In this document: positions 4,306 through 21,580 of the stretch, piece by piece
How the letters are laid out: every line of letters starts with the position of its first letter
Numbering within the stretch: the first letter of the stretch is position 1
Source: a virus
IMG/VR virus record: IMGVR_UViG_3300015261_000167
Location: 1-21,580 of that record
DNA length: 21,580 nt
Reading direction: 5' to 3' (one strand)
Notes under the pieces: model-generated
The model's database searches: none
Seen by the model: the letters and a program-made list of their open reading frames with translations, nothing else
Told to the model about the DNA's origin: nothing
Made by a program: the position numbers and the translations under genes

Positions 4306-4995
4306 ATGGGGCGTGTTCTGGCGATAGTGGGTATTGTTGTAACAGTGGTTTATTTGGTTTTTGTTTGGTGGTTGGTAGGGGAGAGGATTCAATCCCTGCA
4401 AACCATGGGGCTAAATGAAGTAGGGGATTTTTTAGCAGGTGTGTTTGGACCTTTAGCTATTCTCTGGCTCGTATTGGGGTTTTTCCAACAGGGCGTAGAA
4501 CTTCGGCAAGGGACAGAGGCGCTGAAGATGCAAGCAGAAGAATTAAGGGCGTCAGTACAGCAGCAGTCAGCTATGGTTAATGTTTCGAAGGAACAGCTGC
4601 GCACTGCGATAGATGCAGCAAATTATGAGAAACAGCTTAACGAAAGAAACTGTGAGCCACATACTGGTTTTAAATTTAAGTATATGGCCACTAAAGGTCC
4701 TGAGAATTTCGCTACTTTTGTACTGATCAACACCGGACCCAGATGTAGCGCGTTGAGTGTCATATTTTCCGTCTCTGATTCTGAGCAAATAATTTTAATA
4801 TATAAGGATGTTTTTGCGAGCGACGAAATTGAAATTGAAGTGCCTGAAAGGCTACTAAGTGTTTCTGAACCAAGAAAGGCTACTCTTAGTTATACAAAAA
4901 ATAACGGAACAGTAAGTCATGAGTTTTATGGTCTAAGGAAAGTCCTGCCTAGATTTGGTCATCCTTTTGCGGAAGCGGTAAGGCTCTCTAGATAA
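4306..4995 (+). CDS. Two-helix membrane protein with coiled coil, paralogue of the product at 9725-10378
   Basis: A 229-aa protein. Two membrane segments, ~4-24 and ~41-60, are followed by a polar heptad-like stretch (~64-110) and a beta-rich C-terminal domain. Residues 36-91 match residues 36-91 of the 9725-10378 product at 41 of 56 positions without gaps (shared block LNE-GDFLAGVFGP), while the C-terminal domains differ. The start has GAGGTG eight bases upstream. The gene is visibly AT-richer than its neighbours, suggesting separate acquisition. Its stop is followed with no spacer by the stop of the convergent methyltransferase gene. Function unknown; an envelope-sensing or exclusion role is speculation. 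Confidence 0.75.
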   Translation: MGRVLAIVGIVVTVVYLVFVWWLVGERIQSLQTMGLNEVGDFLAGVFGPLAILWLVLGFFQQGVELRQGTEALKMQAEELRASVQQQSAMVNVSKEQLRTAIDAANYEKQLNERNCEPHTGFKFKYMATKGPENFATFVLINTGPRCSALSVIFSVSDSEQIILIYKDVFASDEIEIEVPERLLSVSEPRKATLSYTKNNGTVSHEFYGLRKVLPRFGHPFAEAVRLSR

Positions 4996-7037: not shown

Positions 7038-7820
7038 ATGGCATCGAATCTAGACGGTGCGTTGGCAAGCATTAGTCGTCATAAACAGATGATTGATGGT
7101 TGTAATGGGCGGGTTAAGTGGGCAGCGAAAAATGCTGTTTTTCATCTTGAGATGTCGGGCAAGCTTCTCAGCATCGACCCGTTAATGTCTGCGTTTCGTG
7201 CTATATGTGCTGAAGAAGAGGCAGCTACAGCGCTTATCTTTTCGCTTAAACGGCTTAAGTACGAAGGTGCGGGGAAAATCCAGTTCAAAAGCCATCAAGA
7301 TAAGCAGGCCGTAATCTTTTTCATTCATGCAATGAGAGAATGGGTCAACGATTTCAAAGTTGAGGTAAGTCATATTTTCTCAGATGCACGCTTGTATCCA
7401 ACGGAAGTGAACGGGCGTCATGCTGTTGGTATATATCTCCCACTGCTAAACACCGACAAGGCGGTGCATCCAATCCCGCCCCTATCATTGAATGTCCGAG
7501 GAAAAAGCTCTTGGGATGAAATCATTAACGGACTAGTAGCAAAGAAATGCGATGCAGACGGGTTCATTGGATTGAAAGAATATGTAGAAAAGCGTGCAAA
7601 TACCAGGAACGAACTTCTATACGCTACCGACAAAGGTATCCCGGCTTGGAAAACTGGAGTAGAACACTTTATCGTCAATCAATGCGGGATTGTAGAAGCC
7701 CTGCTTTTCTCAGTTGGCCTAATTGATCCATGGGGCGGTAAGGACAAGGATCGTTCACCAATTGTTGAGTCGTGTATTGCTGTGTTTTTAAAGTCATTCC
7801 GATTGCCACCAAAAAATTAG
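7038..7820 (+). CDS. Hypothetical protein, possible AbiV/HEPN-like helical protein
   Basis: A 260-aa, mainly helical protein. The N-terminal region (AAKNAVFHLEMSGKLLSI... then AICAEEEAATALIFSLKRL) recalls AbiV-type proteins, in which an acidic EE motif follows a helical pair. Near residues 190-200 the stretch KRANTRNELLY resembles an RNxxxH HEPN motif with Tyr in place of His. These likenesses are weak, so no function is assigned. The start at 7038 follows GAGG about ten bases upstream; an in-frame GTG at 7017 is the alternative. It is divergent from the PAPS-reductase-family gene and heads a + strand cassette, as expected for a lysogen-expressed defence or exclusion gene. Confidence 0.7.
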   Translation: MASNLDGALASISRHKQMIDGCNGRVKWAAKNAVFHLEMSGKLLSIDPLMSAFRAICAEEEAATALIFSLKRLKYEGAGKIQFKSHQDKQAVIFFIHAMREWVNDFKVEVSHIFSDARLYPTEVNGRHAVGIYLPLLNTDKAVHPIPPLSLNVRGKSSWDEIINGLVAKKCDADGFIGLKEYVEKRANTRNELLYATDKGIPAWKTGVEHFIVNQCGIVEALLFSVGLIDPWGGKDKDRSPIVESCIAVFLKSFRLPPKN

Positions 7821-8175: not shown

Positions 8176-9183
8176 TCAAGCAGCGGCGCGTTTGAGCTGC
8201 TCGGTCAGCTGTGTAGGCAGACCGCGCAGCGTCAGCGTGCCGCCTGCTTCGTCGAACTCGATCTTGTGGCCCAACAAGTGCGCCTCGAAGCTGATCGACA
8301 TGCCCTCGGCCCGGCCGGTGAAGCGTCGGAATTTGTCGAGCGTCTTCTTGTCCGGCGGCAGGGCATCGGAAATCCCGTAATCCTTCGCCTTGATGAAGTC
8401 GTAGAAGTTCTTTGGCCGGTCTTCGTCGATCAACTCCGAAAGCTCGTCAAGGGTGATCGGCTCGCCGAGCTTGGCCTGGGCCATGGAGTAGTTGACCAGC
8501 GTGTGTGTCTTCTCGCGCGCTGAGTCCTCTGGTAGATCCTCACTTTCAACAAAGTCGCTGAACGCTTTGAGCAAGGTCCGGGTTTCGCTTGGGCCGTCGA
8601 TCCCTTCCTGGCAACCGATGAAGTCGCGGAAGTAGTCGTTCAGGCGGCGGCCCTGCTTACCCTTCAGGTACGAGATGTACTGCTTCGACTGTTTGTTGTT
8701 CTGCCATTCGCTGATGTTTATGCGCGCAGCCAGGCGGATGTGGTCCAGGTCCAGGCGCTTCACGGTCATCAGGGCCAGTTCTTCAGTCATGGTCACCGCT
8801 TCGGTTTCCTGCACCAGGGCGATGACCAGGTAATCGGTCATGCCTTGCTGATAGTGGCAGAAGAGGGCGTGCCCACCGGTGGTGAGGTTCGACTCTTCCA
8901 TCAGCTTAGTCAGGTGCTCGACGGCGGTGGTGCTGAAGGCCAGGAAGTCGGTTACGCCGGCCAGGTACTTGCCGAGCCATCCGCTCAATGGGTAAGCGCC
9001 TGATTCTTGATGAAAGAACCCCCAGCCCTTACCGGCAGTGGCGTTGTAGCTTTCGTTGAGCTGGCTCATCAGGTCGTCACGGGCCGGGCTCTCGACCTGC
9101 TCGGAGGCGCCCAAGAACAGCACGGCCGGGCTACCGTCGGGCTTCTTGTCGATCTTGTGGATGACGCTATGGCGTACAGGCAT
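8176..9183 (-). CDS. Nucleoid-associated protein, YejK/NdpA family
   Basis: 335 aa, the same length as the E. coli YejK/NdpA protein as I remember it. The start at [14 protein letters not shown], the central [21 protein letters not shown] region, [19 protein letters not shown] and [17 protein letters not shown] are typical of PF04245. Cellular members associate with the nucleoid; a phage copy may act on host or phage chromatin during early infection, which is inference. The start at 9183 has TGAGGT eight bases upstream. An in-frame start at 9285 would add 34 unrelated residues across the leader hairpin 9204-9229. No neighbour suggests an operon partner; it is a single minus-strand gene between two + cassettes. 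Confidence 0.92.
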
Positions 9184-9203
9184 TTCGTTTACCTCAGGTA
9201 GGC

Positions 9204-9229
9204 GCCGCTCTCCGGTGACCGGATGCGGC
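9204..9229 (-). promoter_or_regulatory. Leader hairpin of the yejK-like gene
   Basis: On the minus strand GCCGC-at-CCGGT-c-ACCGG-aga-GCGGC forms a two-part stem. The outer arms are the same GCCGC/GCGGC as at 1479-1493 and 2765-2778. It lies about eight bases before the SD TGAGGT. Confidence 0.45.
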
Positions 9230-9303
9230 TGTGTGTGTGAAATTTGGTGAAGTGGCGGTTTGATGGCTCTATGATTCGCCACCACCTACAGGGAGAGTTT
9301 TAA

Positions 9304-9642
9304 ATGCGTTTTTTACTGGCTACAGCGATAGCTATTGCGATTGCAGGCTGCTCCGGGCCCGGCGTTGTTCCGATGGGCCGCGACACCTACATGATTGCGA
9401 AGGACGGTAGCTTCACTACTTTTGGCGGTGGCGCTGTAAAAGCGGAGCTGTACCAAGAAGCCGATGCGTTCTGTGGCAAGAAGGGGAAGCAGTTGATGCC
9501 AGTCAAAGAGGCGTCCAGGGATTCGGGTTACGGGCGCTACGCAAATGCCGAATTGCAATTCCGTTGTCTTGACGCGAACGACCCAGAGATGGGCCGACCG
9601 ACGATGGAGTCAGAGCCACAGCTGAAGATCAAAGTGGAGTAA
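9304..9642 (+). CDS. Small secreted lipoprotein, moron candidate
   Basis: A 112-aa protein with a lipoprotein signal peptide: MRFLLATAIAIA then the lipobox IAGC with Cys16 as the lipidated residue; Ser at +2 suggests outer-membrane sorting. The mature part has two further Cys (in AFCGKKGK and QFRCLD) that could form a disulfide, and a YGRYANAELQFRC stretch typical of small Pseudomonas lipoproteins of unknown function. The start has GGGAGAG seven bases upstream, and a -10-like TATGAT lies at 9270-9275. As a + strand gene in a prophage it may alter the envelope of the lysogen. Confidence 0.8.
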   Translation: MRFLLATAIAIAIAGCSGPGVVPMGRDTYMIAKDGSFTTFGGGAVKAELYQEADAFCGKKGKQLMPVKEASRDSGYGRYANAELQFRCLDANDPEMGRPTMESEPQLKIKVE

Positions 9643-9659
9643 GCCGCCATTTGCGGTGA

Positions 9660-9720
9660 TGGCAATTAAGTCTAGGTTGGGGTATTACGGGTGACCGGCA
9701 TGGAGCCGGATCAAGGAGAT
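9660..9720 (+). promoter_or_regulatory. Promoter and leader cassette, copy 2
   Basis: The second copy of the 7883-7943 cassette: identical TGGCAATT (9660-9667) and a 42-base block (9679-9720) with -10-like TATTAC (9683-9688), hairpin CCGGC-atgga-GCCGG (9695-9709) and AAGGAG (9713-9718). The offset between the two copies is constant at 1777 bases throughout, with no indel. Confidence 0.65.
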
Positions 9721-9724
9721 TGTT

Positions 9725-10378
9725 TTGGCAAAGAAGCTTGAGTTTTGGGGGGCATTGGGCACCACTTTCTACCTGGCGATTATCGTAGTGACTGTTGCCA
9801 ACAACTTCGATGATTTCTTATGCCTTAAGCTTAATGAATTAGGAGATTTTCTCGCGGGAGTTTTCGGGCCTGTTGCATTTCTATGGCTGGTTCTTGGTTT
9901 CTTGCAGCAAGGTAGAGAACTAAAATTAAGCACTGATGCATTAAGGCTGCAAGCGGACGAACTCAGGGCTTCCGTGGAACAACAGACGATGATGGTTGAA
10001 TCTCAAAAAATAACCTTGGATAACCATGAGCGCTCACTTGATCCATTGCTGGTTTTGCAAGCTATACCGGGGACGCTTGATGAAGATGGGGACCATCATT
10101 TTCAGTTCAAGGTATTCAATAAGGGCGCATATTGTGAGGATGTAGAGATAAGTATTTCATCAGATGATTTTAGCTTTAGCCTGAGGGCGGAGCCGCTTTA
10201 TGATGATACATATACAACGTTTTCAGTTGGCGGGTGGAGCGATAAAGTAAACGTCGTAATTTCATATCTACGTGTAAGTGGGAATGCTGGAGTCCAGAAA
10301 TTTCAACTCACTAAGGCTGGGCACGAAGATGAAATTTGGTATGCGATTTCGAAGCTCAGGTCGGGGTCGGCACGCTGA
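9725..10378 (+). CDS. Two-helix membrane protein with coiled coil, paralogue of the product at 4306-4995
   Basis: 217 aa, starting at TTG six bases after AAGGAG, a clear case where the SD decides a non-ATG start. Membrane segments are at ~8-25 and ~41-60, a heptad-like polar stretch at ~64-105 (LRLQADELRASVEQQ), then a beta-rich C-terminal domain (FQFKVFNKGAYCEDVEISI) that could be an Ig-like or C2-like sandwich. Residues 36-91 align gap-free with the 4306-4995 product (41/56 identical), while the C-termini do not. Conserved membrane anchor plus variable outer domain suggests a family that diversifies its recognition part. Function unknown. Confidence 0.75.
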   Translation: MAKKLEFWGALGTTFYLAIIVVTVANNFDDFLCLKLNELGDFLAGVFGPVAFLWLVLGFLQQGRELKLSTDALRLQADELRASVEQQTMMVESQKITLDNHERSLDPLLVLQAIPGTLDEDGDHHFQFKVFNKGAYCEDVEISISSDDFSFSLRAEPLYDDTYTTFSVGGWSDKVNVVISYLRVSGNAGVQKFQLTKAGHEDEIWYAISKLRSGSAR

Positions 10379-15497: not shown

Positions 15498-15875
15498 ATG
15501 TTCAGATTTTTTCTAGCCACTATTTTTTCATTTGTTTTTCTCGGCGTAATTTCTGGTTGCTCTTCCACTGCCGAACAAGAAAAAACACTGAGCGCCGGGC
15601 TCGTTGCGCATTTGAATAAATTCAAGACGTACCCGATCGCCTCGCAACTGGCCGGGGTTGAAGGGACAACCCAACTGCGCTTTACGATAGATGGCGACGG
15701 AAATGTCGTTTCTTATGAGCTGGTACAAAGTTCAGGCAATGTGGACTTGGACGCGGCCACTCTAGAATTAATCCGTCGCGCCCAACCACTGCCGAAACCA
15801 CCAGCCGATTTAATGAAAGACGGCCCAATTACGATCATTGCCCCTTTTATCTACTCCCTAGACGGGAATATCTGA
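15498..15875 (+). CDS. Lipoprotein with a TonB C-terminal-like domain, moron candidate
   Basis: A 125-aa protein. The signal peptide ends in the lipobox ISGC with Cys21 lipidated and Ser at +2. The mature part, FKTYPIASQLAGVEGTTQLRFTIDGDGNVVSYELVQSSGNVDLDAATLELI, has the hallmarks of a TonB C-terminal domain (YP..A, the IDxDGxV turn, SSG..xLDxAA), but without TonB's membrane helix and proline spacer. It could bind TonB boxes of outer-membrane receptors and so affect receptor use by other phages or siderophores; that is inference. Its 3' end overlaps the convergent small minus gene by 18 bases. A GTGCGA-ga-TCGCAC palindrome lies at 15462-15475, in front of it. Confidence 0.8.
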   Translation: MFRFFLATIFSFVFLGVISGCSSTAEQEKTLSAGLVAHLNKFKTYPIASQLAGVEGTTQLRFTIDGDGNVVSYELVQSSGNVDLDAATLELIRRAQPLPKPPADLMKDGPITIIAPFIYSLDGNI

Positions 15876-16055
15876 GCAGGACTTGCAATCCGCCGCCGTC
15901 ACTCGATGACCGTCTTCGCATTCAACGACGGAAACGCTGCTGGTGTAGCCACGTTCAGCGTTGAGCCTGTTTATCTCGCTGATACAGGCGGCCAGGCTCT
16001 TGTCGGAAAATACCCGAAGTTCGCCGCGCAGGGTGATGTGGATGACTTTGTTCAT
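15858..16055 (-). CDS. Small hypothetical protein, tandem paralogue of the next gene
   Basis: 65 aa: MNKVIHITLRGELRVFSDKS, then ACISEINRLNAERGYTSSVSVVECEDGHRVTAADCKSC. It is plainly homologous to the product of 16120-16305 (MNKVLRITLAGDREVF...). The ATG at 16055 is preferred over 16061 because it matches the paralogue's start and gives proper spacing from GGAG. The pattern, a short beta hairpin plus helix, ends in a Cys pair absent from the paralogue. Function unknown. It is preceded by a conserved hairpin leader (16081-16104). Confidence 0.75.
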   Translation of the reverse strand: MNKVIHITLRGELRVFSDKSLAACISEINRLNAERGYTSSVSVVECEDGHRVTAADCKSCSDIPV

Positions 16056-16080
16056 GGTCATGCTCCGGGTTGTTTTCCCA

Positions 16081-16104
16081 ATGCCCACCGCTCTGGATGG
16101 GCAT
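16081..16104 (-). promoter_or_regulatory. Conserved leader hairpin, copy A
   Basis: ATGCCCA and TGGGCAT enclose a 10-nt loop. Flanks (GTTGT..CCCAA on one side, TCAGTGA on the other) match copy B at 16547-16569. Stem bases differ in compensating pairs between the copies, which supports an RNA structure. Confidence 0.55.
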
Positions 16105-16119: not shown

Positions 16120-16305
16120 TCATGCCGCAGCCTTGCACTCAGCAGCCGTCATGCGCTGCCCGTCTTCCAGCTCAACCACGCACACGCCGTTGGTATAGCC
16201 CCGCTCGGTGTTGATGCGATTCGCCTCGCGAATGCATGCAGCCAGTTCGCTGTCGGCGAACACCTCGCGGTCGCCGGCAAGGGTGATGCGAAGGACCTTG
16301 TTCAT
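16120..16305 (-). CDS. Small hypothetical protein, tandem paralogue of the previous gene
   Basis: 61 aa: MNKVLRITLAGDREVFADSE, then ACIREANRINTERGYTNGVCVVELEDGQRMTAAECKAAA. It shares most positions with the 15858-16055 product, from the first residue through the TAA-[ED]-CK motif. The start is supported by GGAGGCGGC directly upstream and by a four-base overlap with the gene ending at 16302. Function unknown. Tandem retention of two copies suggests dosage or divergence of targets. Confidence 0.75.
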   Translation of the reverse strand: MNKVLRITLAGDREVFADSELAACIREANRINTERGYTNGVCVVELEDGQRMTAAECKAAA

Positions 16306-17400: not shown

Positions 17401-18225
17401 CTACTTGCCGGGAGAGGCCCACCTAGCCAGCGTCCAATAGGTAGACTGACCAATCCTTGGCTCCTTTGCGTACTCTGTAGGGCGCTTCAAGCCGACCTGC
17501 ATAAGATCGTCTCGCACCTGCAGGACAGTCCAGCGAATATCCCTCGCCAAGTCCTTTTGGCGGAAACAATTTTCTCCCGAGGTTCTGTCAGCCCAGGCGG
17601 TGAATTCTGACTGGTTATAGTGAAAGAGGGACTGATTGAAATCGGTAGCGGAAACGCAGCCAAAAGCTGAGCCGTCTAAAATCACCAGGTCGTCGGCTGA
17701 TGCACGAAAGGTACCGGGCGCGGCAATGTGTGAGGCTACATTCGTCACCGGGAGCAAACGGTACGCGATCGCACCGATAATGATTGCCACGAGACCAGAG
17801 CACAGCGCTACGAACAGCGCGTTATTGCCAGCTGCCGAAGCTGCTCCCGGAATTACTTCTACAGACCCGGTGACAGGACTCTGACTTTCTTGGTTGATGG
17901 GCCCTGCGTTATCCTCAGGCAAAACATCGGCGCCGCAATGTTTGCACTTTATTGCTGCGCGCTTGATGGTCTCGGCGCACATCGGGCAAATCCTTTCAGA
18001 TGAGGCGCCGATCTCAGAGGGCAGCTTTTGTTCTGTATTCGCCGAAACCGACCATACGAGCGCAGCCACCCATCCAAGTGCTGTCCACCCTAGCAACAGG
18101 TTCACCAAAAAAATCGAGTTGCCGTTGCGATGCTTGCGCTTTGCAGCCACGAAGGTGGGCGTGAAATATATGACGAAGGCAGCCATTAGGAGCACAAAGC
18201 CGGCCAGTGGACTTCCACTATCCAT
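17401..18225 (-). CDS. Superinfection-immunity-like membrane protein with zinc ribbon
   Basis: A 274-aa protein. Residues ~8-62 (AAFVIYFTPTFVAAKRKHRN, then NLLLGWTALGWVAALVWSV) match the Imm-type superinfection immunity family, two membrane helices around a basic loop. A zinc ribbon follows (C80, C83, C94, C97: CPMCAETI...CKHCGA). A third membrane helix is at ~136-158, then a C-terminal domain of ~115 aa with no recognised fold. Imm proteins of T4 type block DNA injection by related phages; the same role is inferred here. Stand-alone Imm proteins are much shorter, so this is a multi-domain form. The start SD (TAGG) is weak. A clear terminator follows. Confidence 0.75.
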   Translation of the reverse strand: MDSGSPLAGFVLLMAAFVIYFTPTFVAAKRKHRNGNSIFLVNLLLGWTALGWVAALVWSVSANTEQKLPSEIGASSERICPMCAETIKRAAIKCKHCGADVLPEDNAGPINQESQSPVTGSVEVIPGAASAAGNNALFVALCSGLVAIIIGAIAYRLLPVTNVASHIAAPGTFRASADDLVILDGSAFGCVSATDFNQSLFHYNQSEFTAWADRTSGENCFRQKDLARDIRWTVLQVRDDLMQVGLKRPTEYAKEPRIGQSTYWTLARWASPGK

Positions 18226-18993: not shown

Positions 18994-19320
18994 TCAGTAT
19001 GTAGTCGCGATCGCCTGCGCCAGTTGCATGTCAGACATATGAGGCGATGTGTAGGCCGAGCGATAATGCCGGGACGCCTGCTCAAACTCCGCGCCGCGAA
19101 TCTCGCCGTCCGAACCAATGAACGCCAGAGCGTCGGTCTTGGCTGACTTGAAAATCTTTGGCGGCTCGGTCGTTAGAGATGTAGTCGCCCCAATTAAAAT
19201 GGTTGGCGCGGAGATTGTTAGAAATATCGCGGCAGCGATAGGGTTGGCGCCATCACCTGACACGGCCTGTGTGCTGACCGATGCCAGCAGGGCGACTGCC
19301 AGAGTCTTCCATGAGTCCAT
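18994..19320 (-). CDS. DUF2388 family exported protein
   Basis: A 108-aa protein. The C-terminal half AKTDALAFIGSDGEIRGAEFEQASRHYR, then MSDMQLAQAIATTY matches DUF2388, a Pseudomonas family of small exported proteins normally encoded on the chromosome in tandem. The N-terminus (MDSWKTLAVALLASVSTQAVSG) looks like a signal peptide. Function unknown. SD weak. A chromosomal-type gene inside the prophage suggests transfer from a host. Confidence 0.8.
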   Translation of the reverse strand: MDSWKTLAVALLASVSTQAVSGDGANPIAAAIFLTISAPTILIGATTSLTTEPPKIFKSAKTDALAFIGSDGEIRGAEFEQASRHYRSAYTSPHMSDMQLAQAIATTY

Positions 19321-19385: not shown

Positions 19386-19412
19386 AGAAGCCCGGCGCTG
19401 GGCCGGGCTTCT
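19386..19412 (-). terminator. Intrinsic terminator of the DUF1828-like gene
   Basis: A perfect 10-bp stem (AGAAGCCCGG / CCGGGCTTCT) with a 7-nt loop, 16 bases beyond the stop at 19428, followed on the minus strand by TGTTT. Confidence 0.8.
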
Positions 19413-19427
19413 GCATCTAAAACTTGA

Positions 19428-20192
19428 TCAGGCGGCCTGTAGCGCTGCGTAGAGCTTCTCGCTATTTCCCTCGAAGACCACAATCGATGCGGTTTCGGCT
19501 AAAGCAACCATGGCTTGCTGAGTGGACTCATCTTCGCCACGCTCCAGGATAACGGTGCGCTTGGTATTGTCGCCAGAATTTTTCAGATCGCCCATCTTGC
19601 CGACGGCTCCATAGATACTTGCCCAGTTTGGTTTTCCAGCAGATCCGGCGGAGATAGTTTGGATGACCATCTGATTTGCGGTTCCTGGGTTTAGCACAAA
19701 GGGAAAGGAAAGCTGATGTCCGCTAGCCCCTGCCAAAATAAAATCTCGTCGTAAGCGGTCTTTATAAATGCGCGACAAGATGGATCCGACCTTCCGCTGG
19801 AATTTGGGCGTTTGAATTACGAGCAAATCGCTGCAGGCGTCACCGATTCTGGAGGCGGCCTCAATGAATCTAGCTATCTGAAAACCTGCCTCGCCCTCAG
19901 GGCAGACAGTGTGAAGCTCGCCATTATCAGATAAGGACATTCCACTCAGCTTGGCGATATCTCCGAATTTCTTGGAGCGCCTCTGGTCTGGGGCTATCCC
20001 ATGAGTCATAGCAGTGAACAAAATGTCGGAATTATCACTTATGCGAACTAGTCCGCGCCCAATATCCTGAACGAACGCGCCTATAGCCATGCCGTCGAAG
20101 GAAAGCTTGAGAGGGGATTGAATGTAGGCCAGTCCATCGTTGATATGACGGCAACGAAAGCCCAGCTGCCTGCTGATGTCTGCACAGTTCAT
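19428..20192 (-). CDS. DUF1828-like protein, second gene of a two-gene module
   Basis: A 254-aa protein. The N-terminal half (AYIQSPLKLSFDGMAIGAFVQDIGRGLVRISDNSDILFTAM, then FGDIAKLSGMSLSDNGELHTVC) resembles the DUF1828 pattern of a short beta domain with a conserved ISDN turn. The C-terminal half may correspond to the DUF1829-like extension. The ATG at 20192 overlaps the stop of the partner gene by ATGA, so the two are translated together; the frame is open upstream to 20291 but that would run into the partner. Function is not established to my knowledge. Family call is from memory of the pattern only. Confidence 0.7.
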   Translation of the reverse strand: MNCADISRQLGFRCRHINDGLAYIQSPLKLSFDGMAIGAFVQDIGRGLVRISDNSDILFTAMTHGIAPDQRRSKKFGDIAKLSGMSLSDNGELHTVCPEGEAGFQIARFIEAASRIGDACSDLLVIQTPKFQRKVGSILSRIYKDRLRRDFILAGASGHQLSFPFVLNPGTANQMVIQTISAGSAGKPNWASIYGAVGKMGDLKNSGDNTKRTVILERGEDESTQQAMVALAETASIVVFEGNSEKLYAALQAA

Positions 20193-20713
20193 AGTAAGTC
20201 CATTTGCCCGCTTTCTGATTGCGGCTGTCGCGGCGGCAACGTAAAAGGTGGCGCCCCTGAAATATTGGCACGCTCTAGGAAGATACGCCATAACGCCTGA
20301 ATGTCGGTCCGATCAATGGGCTCTGCGTATCCTGAAGATCCTTCAGGGACTGGCACGTGCACATGAGGATGGTCCGCATTTTTCCCATAATGCGGCATGC
20401 CCTTTCCGATAGTGTTGACGTGTTCGCTTGGACCATTTTCGTCAAGGGCCAGCAGCCTGGCGCCACCAGCAACAAAGGTCATTGATACCTTATCCGGCAC
20501 TCCGTCGAAGTCACTGTACTTATGGAAAATATCTAGGAAGTAGCCCTCTTGGACGACATCTTTAATCGATATAGGGATGCGACACTTGTGGGACGCTGGA
20601 AACCCTTTCCCGCCCTGGGACTTCCAGATAATGGTCTTGGCTCCAGCCCAGGATTTTGGGACGGAAATTGCCGCCATGGCATCTGTGTACGGAATCTTGC
20701 CGGCTTGCGCCAT
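20189..20713 (-). CDS. DUF6978-like protein, first gene of a two-gene module
   Basis: A 174-aa protein. The middle region GYFLDIFHKYSDFDGVPDKVSMTFVAGGARLLALDENGPSEHVN, then HYGKNADHPHVHVPV, has the His-rich HxN...HxHxH layout I associate with the DUF6978 family; several of these His could bind a metal. A proline-rich tail (PPFTLPPRQPQ) leads into the coupled DUF1828-like gene. The start has AGGAG seven bases upstream. As a coupled pair next to the repressor, with its own terminator, it looks like an accessory module for defence or addiction; this is inference. Confidence 0.65.
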   Translation of the reverse strand: MAQAGKIPYTDAMAAISVPKSWAGAKTIIWKSQGGKGFPASHKCRIPISIKDVVQEGYFLDIFHKYSDFDGVPDKVSMTFVAGGARLLALDENGPSEHVNTIGKGMPHYGKNADHPHVHVPVPEGSSGYAEPIDRTDIQALWRIFLERANISGAPPFTLPPRQPQSESGQMDLL

Positions 20714-20846
20714 TCCCTGCTCCTATAATTCACGAGCCTCAAATGAGCGCGCTTCCTTTTTTTGGTTCAGTTGAAACCACTATTCACCCGGCGGAGCGCA
20801 CGAAGCCTACCTAGGCGTCGATCGCACATTCCTTCCCGCCTGCACC

Positions 20847-21086
20847 TCATCCATGCACACCATAGAAGTGATTCAGCGCTATCAGCTCAACCACAGCCAC
20901 GATGGTGCAGAGTACAACGAAGCCAGGACTGAAAACCCGCTTGCGGTTGGATGAGCTGCCGTCCGGCCAAATGCCAGCTTCGGTTGTGAAAACCACCATG
21001 AGCGCCAGCAGGGCACAGGTCCACACCTTGCTCCAGAAGCTTTGCTCTCGCCATGAGGTTGATGGCTTTCCAAGGGCGGATGGCAT
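20847..21086 (-). CDS. Small membrane protein coupled to the repressor gene
   Basis: A 79-aa protein with two hydrophobic stretches (~20-38, VWTCALLALMVVFTTEAGI, and ~53-73, FSPGFVVLCTIVAVVELIALN). Its ATG overlaps the repressor stop (TGATG), so it would be made whenever the repressor is made, i.e. in the lysogen. That expression pattern suits a superinfection-exclusion protein, but no family is recognised. SD is poor; coupling probably drives translation. The ~130 bases between its end and the next gene hold no gene. Confidence 0.6.
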   Translation of the reverse strand: MPSALGKPSTSWREQSFWSKVWTCALLALMVVFTTEAGIWPDGSSSNRKRVFSPGFVVLCTIVAVVELIALNHFYGVHG

Positions 21087-21580
21087 CAGTAAAACTTCTG
21101 CAGCGCCTGCACAACCACGCCTACGATCCTGCAGTTCTCGTCGACCGCCTCGATCGGGTAGCTCGGATTCAGCGGCTTCAGGAACAGCCGGCCGCCGTCG
21201 CTCACCAGCTTCTTGAATGTAGCCTCGTTGCTGTCTGGCAGCTTGGCCACCACCAGCTTACCTGGTGCAACCTCAGCCTCGGTGTCTACCAGGATCAGAG
21301 TGCCCTCAGTGATGCTCTGGCCGGCGGGCGCCGTCATCGAGTCACCTTTGACCGTCAGCCAGAACGCTGTGCCCTTGGAGTCGTACTCCGAGAACTCGTA
21401 GCTGTCCGAGAAGCCGGCCGGGTAGGGCTCCACGGCCTCCGCCCAGGAGCCGGCGGCAACCCAGCTGATTACGGGGTAGCGGAATGATTTGGTGGGCTGG
21501 GCGGCGATTGAAATATTCGAGGGGCTTTCGCCAGGCAAAAGCAGCGCTGCCGGATCGATTTTCAGTTCATGGGCAATCTT
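21086..21580 (-). CDS. Phage CI-type repressor, S24 peptidase domain (5' end outside the window)
   Basis: 164 aa are visible; the N-terminal HTH lies beyond the right edge, and only its last residues (KIAHELKIDPAALL) are seen. The C-terminal S24 domain is complete: an Ala-Gly cleavage site in SWVAAGSWAEA, the catalytic Ser in GDSM and the catalytic Lys in EATFKKL. Such repressors keep the prophage silent and undergo RecA-stimulated self-cleavage after DNA damage, which leads to induction. The likely operator at the left promoter is 16873-16887. The partial start shown by an internal TTG is not the real one, since the frame stays open to the window end. Confidence 0.92.
   Translation of the reverse strand, partial: KIAHELKIDPAALLLPGESPSNISIAAQPTKSFRYPVISWVAAGSWAEAVEPYPAGFSDSYEFSEYDSKGTAFWLTVKGDSMTAPAGQSITEGTLILVDTEAEVAPGKLVVAKLPDSNEATFKKLVSDGGRLFLKPLNPSYPIEAVDENCRIVGVVVQALQKFY

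Follow-up and report, generated by a model that had tools for sequence, protein, structure and literature searches.

Organization of the gene A–gene B locus

The window, i.e., the whole stretch of DNA that was analysed, is a viral record of 21.6 kb and belongs to a Pseudomonas prophage. On its minus strand it carries two adjacent genes, which we term gene A and gene B, within the following set of features:

20189..20713, minus strand: gene A, 174 aa (ATG at 20713, TGA at 20189), a remote DUF6978 / PDC-M24A relative
Gene A product, predicted structure: folded domain at residues ~5–164, followed by a disordered C-terminal tail
19428..20192, minus strand: gene B, 254 aa (ATG at 20192, stop at 19428), DUF1828, phrog_1960 / PDC-M24B
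Gene B product: DUF1828 at residues 37–116; C-terminal half of PD-(D/E)XK-like fold
20189..20192, minus strand: ATGA overlap between the stop of gene A and the start of gene B
20192..20206, minus strand: tail codons Q170-M-D-L-L174 of gene A, clamp-binding-like motif
20357..20422, minus strand: gene A codons H98-x-N100 ... H117-x-H119, invariant His/Asn cluster, a putative metal or catalytic site whose chemistry we infer
20720..20725, minus strand: TAGGAG, Shine-Dalgarno sequence of gene A
19386..19412, minus strand: terminator-like hairpin 3′ of gene B, 11 pairs
21086..21580, minus strand: 3′ part of a cI-like repressor gene with an S24-type C-terminus, truncated at the end of the window; the transcript probably begins with this gene
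20847..21086, minus strand: 79-aa ORF between cI and gene A, possibly co-transcribed

Both ends of the pair carry the signals described in a first-pass annotation of this DNA: TAGGAG precedes gene A, and a strong terminator follows gene B in the form of an 11-pair hairpin (19412–19386), which starts 15 nt past the gene, contains 8 G-C pairs, and runs into a T-rich tail. This hairpin is the strongest terminator-like site on the minus strand from position 18000 to the window end. As the region holds three terminator-like sites compared to a shuffle mean of 3.3, the terminator call is carried by hairpin length and position and not by the number of sites. Between 18000 and the end of the window, this strand yielded no sigma-70-like promoter, and an early-left promoter, to which the first-pass annotation had referred, was not identified in the window. 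The strong terminator and the lack of an internal promoter fit, without proving, a single cI–orf79–A–B transcript. Its repressor gene, which ends at 21086, lies only partly inside the window.

Just past the terminator of the pair, a small secreted-looking protein is encoded at 18994–19320, which in another locus (L003) occurs as two tandem paralogues (7087–7413 and 7449–7814). The window contains two further sets of paralogues. Membrane-anchored proteins with the common segment GDFLAGVFGP...QQGxEL are encoded at 4306–4995 and 9725–10378, and tandem small ORFs at 15858–16088 and 16120–16305 on the minus strand share the pattern ITLxGxxxVF...LAACIxExNRxNxERGYT...VExEDG.

Genes A and B form one conserved unit

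Separate searches with A and B in viral contigs recovered the ATGA overlap in all 99 phage-type loci with both genes, a count that includes some overlapping fetches of one contig. The same overlap is found in 14/14 loci of named genomes (Pseudomonas, Azotobacter, Xenorhabdus, Yersinia, Providencia, and Izhakiella). Thus, the junction is not a product of chance, and the coupled pair proposed earlier is indeed one conserved unit. Throughout the close family both genes are coupled, and separate occurrence was not seen. In the remote family, whose chromosomal A proteins were reached only via a DUF1828 search, 26 of 29 DUF1828 genes have an ORF directly upstream, and 25 of these 26 ORFs contain an H-x-H motif.

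A near-identical pair is shared by IMG/VR contig 3300030000_000024 and Pseudomonas sivasensis P7. A pair of 25–27% identity occurs in 240 of 5,426 complete E. coli genomes, where it is chromosomal in all and covered to at least 80% in 238; strains Nissle 1917, ATCC 25922, and CFT073 carry a relative. No plasmid-borne copies of the pair were found. Annotated phage relatives are Pseudomonas phage phPA-G, the E. coli Jouyvirus phages ev207 and ev017, PhiR63_2, and PhiR57_1. Among 392 genomes of the order, the query genome is the sole match, which marks the close family as rare.

In phPA-G, gene A (PP083311.1, 14515–15018) is absent from the deposited annotation, which lists the partner B. The same phage encodes a diversity-generating retroelement (Avd and reverse transcriptase; L006, 9454–10504) about 3 kb beyond the pair.

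Gene A is a remote DUF6978 relative with an invariant polar cluster

Gene A itself has no match in Pfam, PHROGs, PADLOC, or NCBIfam, and its direct family assignment was dropped. Its E. coli homologue P0003 scores 22 bits with DUF6978 (PF22398), below the Pfam gathering cut-off of 29.6, and matches PDC-M24A of PADLOC with an E-value of 4.8e-04. Moreover, hhalign joins the Pseudomonas, enterobacterial, and remote chromosomal groups of A proteins (probabilities: A5–A7 97.5%, A7–A6 96.8%, A5–A6 95.8%), and group A6 includes the proteins of L156 and L161, whose genomic places score as DUF6978 above the cut-off (L133, L134). By way of its relatives and of profile comparison, gene A is a remote member of the DUF6978 superfamily; the likeness stated in the first-pass annotation holds at this distance, and not as a library match of A itself.

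Fourteen residues are invariant across 27 A proteins, Q170 in the tail being one of them. H98, N100, H117, and H119, which lie in the region initially described as His-rich, do not vary in 27 relatives either. In the close family, the invariant set reads R86-x4-D91-x6-H98-x-N100 ... H117-x-H119, and H-x-H is the element that recurs in the remote members. This cluster resembles a metal or catalytic site, an assignment that we regard as putative.

AlphaFold predicts a compact domain, with the last ten residues (165–174) disordered. The best match to A among PDB structures has an E-value of 0.11 and the best among viral structures 0.065, and the fold was left unnamed. PDB sequence matches of A3 and A4 (a designed SAKe protein and spike-fusion constructs) were dismissed as short-stretch artefacts.

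The tail of gene A resembles a sliding-clamp-binding motif

Within the predicted disordered segment, gene A ends in QMDLL. The tails of close relatives are all of the Q-[MIL]-x-[LF] type, with the Gln at the fifth or sixth position from the C-terminal end (QMDLL, QMELL, QMGLL, QMSLL, QIGLPL, QIGLGL, QLGLGI, QLGLSL, and similar, further QMDLNV, QMGFDV, and QMGFGI). Remote A proteins end in QLNLL, QMTLL, QISLAF, QPNLF, QQGLF, QMIIL, QLSFDL, or QTTLGF, and some in EPDLF, PDLF, or GLF without the Gln. The beta-clamp-binding motif has been reviewed as Q-phi-x-[L/M]-[F/L] or Q-phi-x-[L/M]-x-[F/L], often located at the C-terminus, as in QLSLPL of Hda and QLVLGL of Pol IV (PMC11139829). With Met counted as phi, QMDLL satisfies this definition in a flexible segment, and the close-family tails match or nearly match it (PMC11139829). 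In actinobacterial NucS, [E/K]-x-x-L-F serves the same clamp-binding purpose (PMC8228993).

Clustering at 60% identity yielded 28 clusters of A proteins. The relaxed motif is present in the last 15 residues of 19 clusters. Across 5,000 shuffles of the tails, it appeared in 3.3 clusters on average and in 11 at most, and among background ORFs its frequency is 3.3%; since the patterns were set after inspection of the tails, these figures, and the relaxed one in particular, are descriptive. A near-strict pattern, whose second position also accepts Ala, Val, Phe, or Pro, is found in 7/28 clusters (shuffle mean 0.67, maximum 5). The Q motif is absent in 9 of the 28 clusters, most of which end in DLF, GLF, DLL, or GLGL, and the A protein of L159 has no convincing clamp motif. 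At L036, A ends in QMSLL, the very pentapeptide carried by E. coli MutS.

Different synonymous codons are used for the conserved Gln, Gly, and Leu of the tail, and the second position alternates between Met, Ile, and Leu. This pattern points to selection on the tail peptide rather than on translation of gene B. Together with a Shine-Dalgarno-like match of only 0–4 nt before gene B, the synonymous codons rule out that the tail is kept as a ribosome-binding site for B. A second clamp motif near the N-terminus of B, QLGF, was also discarded, as it varies to NLGF, RLGF, and KLGF.

Alternatively, the tail might dock on B or a different partner, or be a packing element of A, with the function of the pair being something else. 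Its location at the A/B junction would suit this reading, as would variants such as QMGFDV and QMDLYR, which violate the strict motif. However, the variation as a whole obeys the grammar of clamp motifs, with pentamer and hexamer forms and M, I, or L at position 2, and includes matches or near-matches to known ones. Further, the tail is predicted to be disordered and is found again in remote members that share little further sequence, so that we judge a non-clamp role improbable. From motif conservation, A would thus dock on DnaN via its C-terminal QMDLL. As far as our searches reach, a clamp-binding-like tail appears to be new for this family.

Gene B combines DUF1828 with a PD-(D/E)XK-like domain

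The DUF1828 likeness of gene B is borne out by Pfam (PF08861, 26.1 bits at a cut-off of 22). The protein also matches phrog_1960 and, over residues 16–234, PDC-M24B of PADLOC (E 7.4e-07). In the ISDN turn, which had been singled out in the first-pass annotation, D53 and D56 are invariant. The predicted structure comprises two domains (pLDDT 87, pTM 0.53). A Foldseek search with the second domain of this model returned AF1548 (1y88) as best match (E 4e-4, probability 1.00), followed by weaker matches to Can2, Card1, Cdn1, SfsA, and MspJI. As modelled, and at the domain level only, the C-terminal half of B is of PD-(D/E)XK-like core fold. This restriction-enzyme-like fold had been overlooked earlier, as had the clamp-binding-like tail of A.

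The conserved residues of the second domain (SGH, W190, Y194, G198, K199, and D202) do not correspond to the canonical nuclease set, and inspection by eye of the positions invariant in 27 B proteins revealed no D...(D/E)xK signature. An active PD-(D/E)XK nuclease is therefore not supported by the conserved residues, which weakens the proposal that the pair cuts DNA.

Without exception, the 43 distinct B proteins of the close family have AA as their last two residues, and 29 have LAA (window 19428–19436), an ending that we take to resemble an SsrA-type degron. Such C-termini would suit a labile antitoxin, and the strongest rival to our interpretation is an addiction module in which A, as a SocB/RipA-like clamp-jamming toxin, halts host replication while B acts as the antitoxin. 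Two coupled genes in fixed ratio are in line with this arrangement, and clamp-targeting toxins are known, namely RipA of the pneumococcal Rosmer system and SocB (PMC12795458). On the other hand, A and B exceed the typical size of toxin–antitoxin proteins, and the invariant polar cluster of A would be superfluous for a plain clamp-blocking peptide. Moreover, the LAA end is missing from many remote B proteins, and the C-terminal helix of B is predicted to be ordered. In view of these points, we consider an addiction module rather unlikely.

The pair lies beside repressors and in defence loci

Using an iterated profile, we found a cI-like repressor gene upstream on the same strand in 114/114 close-family loci; through overlapping fetches, this number counts some contigs more than once, and five of the repressor matches are weak. 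The position beside the repressor, reported for the window from the outset, is thus shared by the close family. The distance between cI and the pair has a median of ~124 nt in distinct cases, and Pseudomonas, Azotobacter, and enterobacterial prophages all carry the pair directly downstream of cI. Altogether, 54 distinct repressor sequences precede it. In 55 locus pairs, the A proteins agree at 80% or more while the repressors are unrelated or below 40% identity, indicating that the pair tracks the rexAB position and not a particular repressor. Remote prophage loci with a cI-like gene nearby, as judged by eye, are L179, L180, L181, and L183.

The universal cI-adjacent place in the close family would also be expected of a device for prophage self-regulation, by which the pair curbs replication or induction of its own prophage via the clamp rather than providing immunity to other phages. 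Yet, remote relatives reside in operons of restriction and BREX systems, where no repressor is present, and the pair is rare among phages, with gene B present in 7 of 50,697 phage records. Self-regulation as the sole role is accordingly the reading that we hold to be very improbable.

Among the neighbours of remote pairs that were selected by eye as defence-like, and which represent confirmed cases rather than an enrichment, PADLOC identified type I restriction–modification (RM) genes at L156, L161, L167, L169, L171, and L175, type III RM at L163, and type IIG enzymes at L173 and L174. The neighbours at L170 are the BREX genes BrxF/BrxC/PglX and those at L159 Gabija GajA/GajB. The proposal of a candidate defence or addiction module was thus right in kind, given such relatives in defence loci. 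It was not new as a candidate, as PADLOC already lists the pair as PDC-M24.

At L170 (G836:C162:19000-38000, 9179–9964), the DUF1828 gene lies between BrxF/BrxC and PglX without a recognisable A. Between the A–B pair and hsdR, PemK/MazF-like and RhuM/Fic-like genes were recognised by eye (L161, 9848–10174; L156, 10350–11348), so that the type I RM operons of L156 and L161 hold several nested modules.

Comparison with known systems

Like the PADLOC candidate PDC-M24, the pair consists of adjacent same-strand genes, a DUF6978-type gene followed by a DUF1828-type gene, and the E. coli prophage relatives match both the PDC-M24A and the PDC-M24B model. In contrast, gene A of the window is too divergent to match PDC-M24A, and the clamp-binding-like tail is absent from the described candidate. 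Taking the matches of B and of the E. coli A protein together with the profile links, the A–B pair is, at the level of sequence, a divergent form of PDC-M24. PDC entries of PADLOC denote phage defence candidates; our literature search found no paper that names PDC-M24 and none that links DUF1828 or DUF6978 to a tested function.

With lambda rexAB, the pair shares its two-gene make-up and its place immediately behind cI in the same orientation, and in the E. coli phages ev207, ev017, and PhiR63_2 it sits before N. It differs in that neither protein matches RexA or RexB (Pfam, PHROGs, PADLOC, NCBIfam) and that no obvious membrane protein is encoded by A or B.

SocAB of Caulobacter and RipAB/Rosmer of Streptococcus are two-gene units with a small protein aimed at DnaN (PMC12795458), as A putatively is. 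However, A and B lack Panacea/SocA, SocB, or Rosmer-type domains (Pfam, PHROGs, PADLOC, NCBIfam), and the gene sizes and domains of the pair are unlike theirs.

EndoMS/NucS, a restriction-like nuclease that is activated by its C-terminal clamp-binding peptide, resembles the pair in joining a restriction-like fold to such a C-terminal pentapeptide (PMC8228993). It is a single mismatch-repair protein whose nuclease site is active, whereas A–B comprises two proteins, and B has no evident D...ExK site.

Proposed mechanism

The most economical model is a clamp-tethered lysogen module. Coupling, tail motif, cI position, defence neighbours, PDC-M24 matches, and the EndoMS/NucS precedent lead us to propose the A–B pair as a candidate superinfection-exclusion module that is expressed in the lysogen, docks on the clamp, and acts on replicating invader DNA; to this proposal, which is drawn from sequence comparison and predicted structure, we give about an even chance. 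The pair would probably be transcribed with cI in the prophage state, like lambda rexAB, and translational coupling would fix the B:A ratio. Through its flexible QMDLL peptide, A would tether to host DnaN, as motif conservation suggests, while activity or sensing would likely reside in its folded domain, which carries the invariant His/Asn/Arg/Asp cluster. B is probably the obligate partner of A or a DNA-engaging subunit. The folded domains may act on DNA or on the replisome, and the tether to the clamp would enrich the complex where DNA is being actively replicated. For an invader that uses the host clamp, replication would then be cut or stalled, resulting in phage exclusion.

More tentatively, and with some doubt on our side, DUF6978/DUF1828 may constitute a widespread clamp-riding immune module of prophages and chromosomal loci, in which a clamp-docking protein brings a partner of restriction-enzyme fold to replication forks in a replication-gated manner. 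If so, the same unit would serve beside cI and as an add-on of restriction, BREX, and Gabija systems, and immunity would come into play only while replication via the host clamp is under way. Phages such as T4 and T7 bring or borrow another processivity factor, and the model predicts that the module selects against users of the host clamp rather than against phages of this kind. The relatives in well-used E. coli strains make a study at native level possible. Should the tail bind DnaN and defence depend on it, the pair would represent a rare anti-phage module that is tethered to the replisome.
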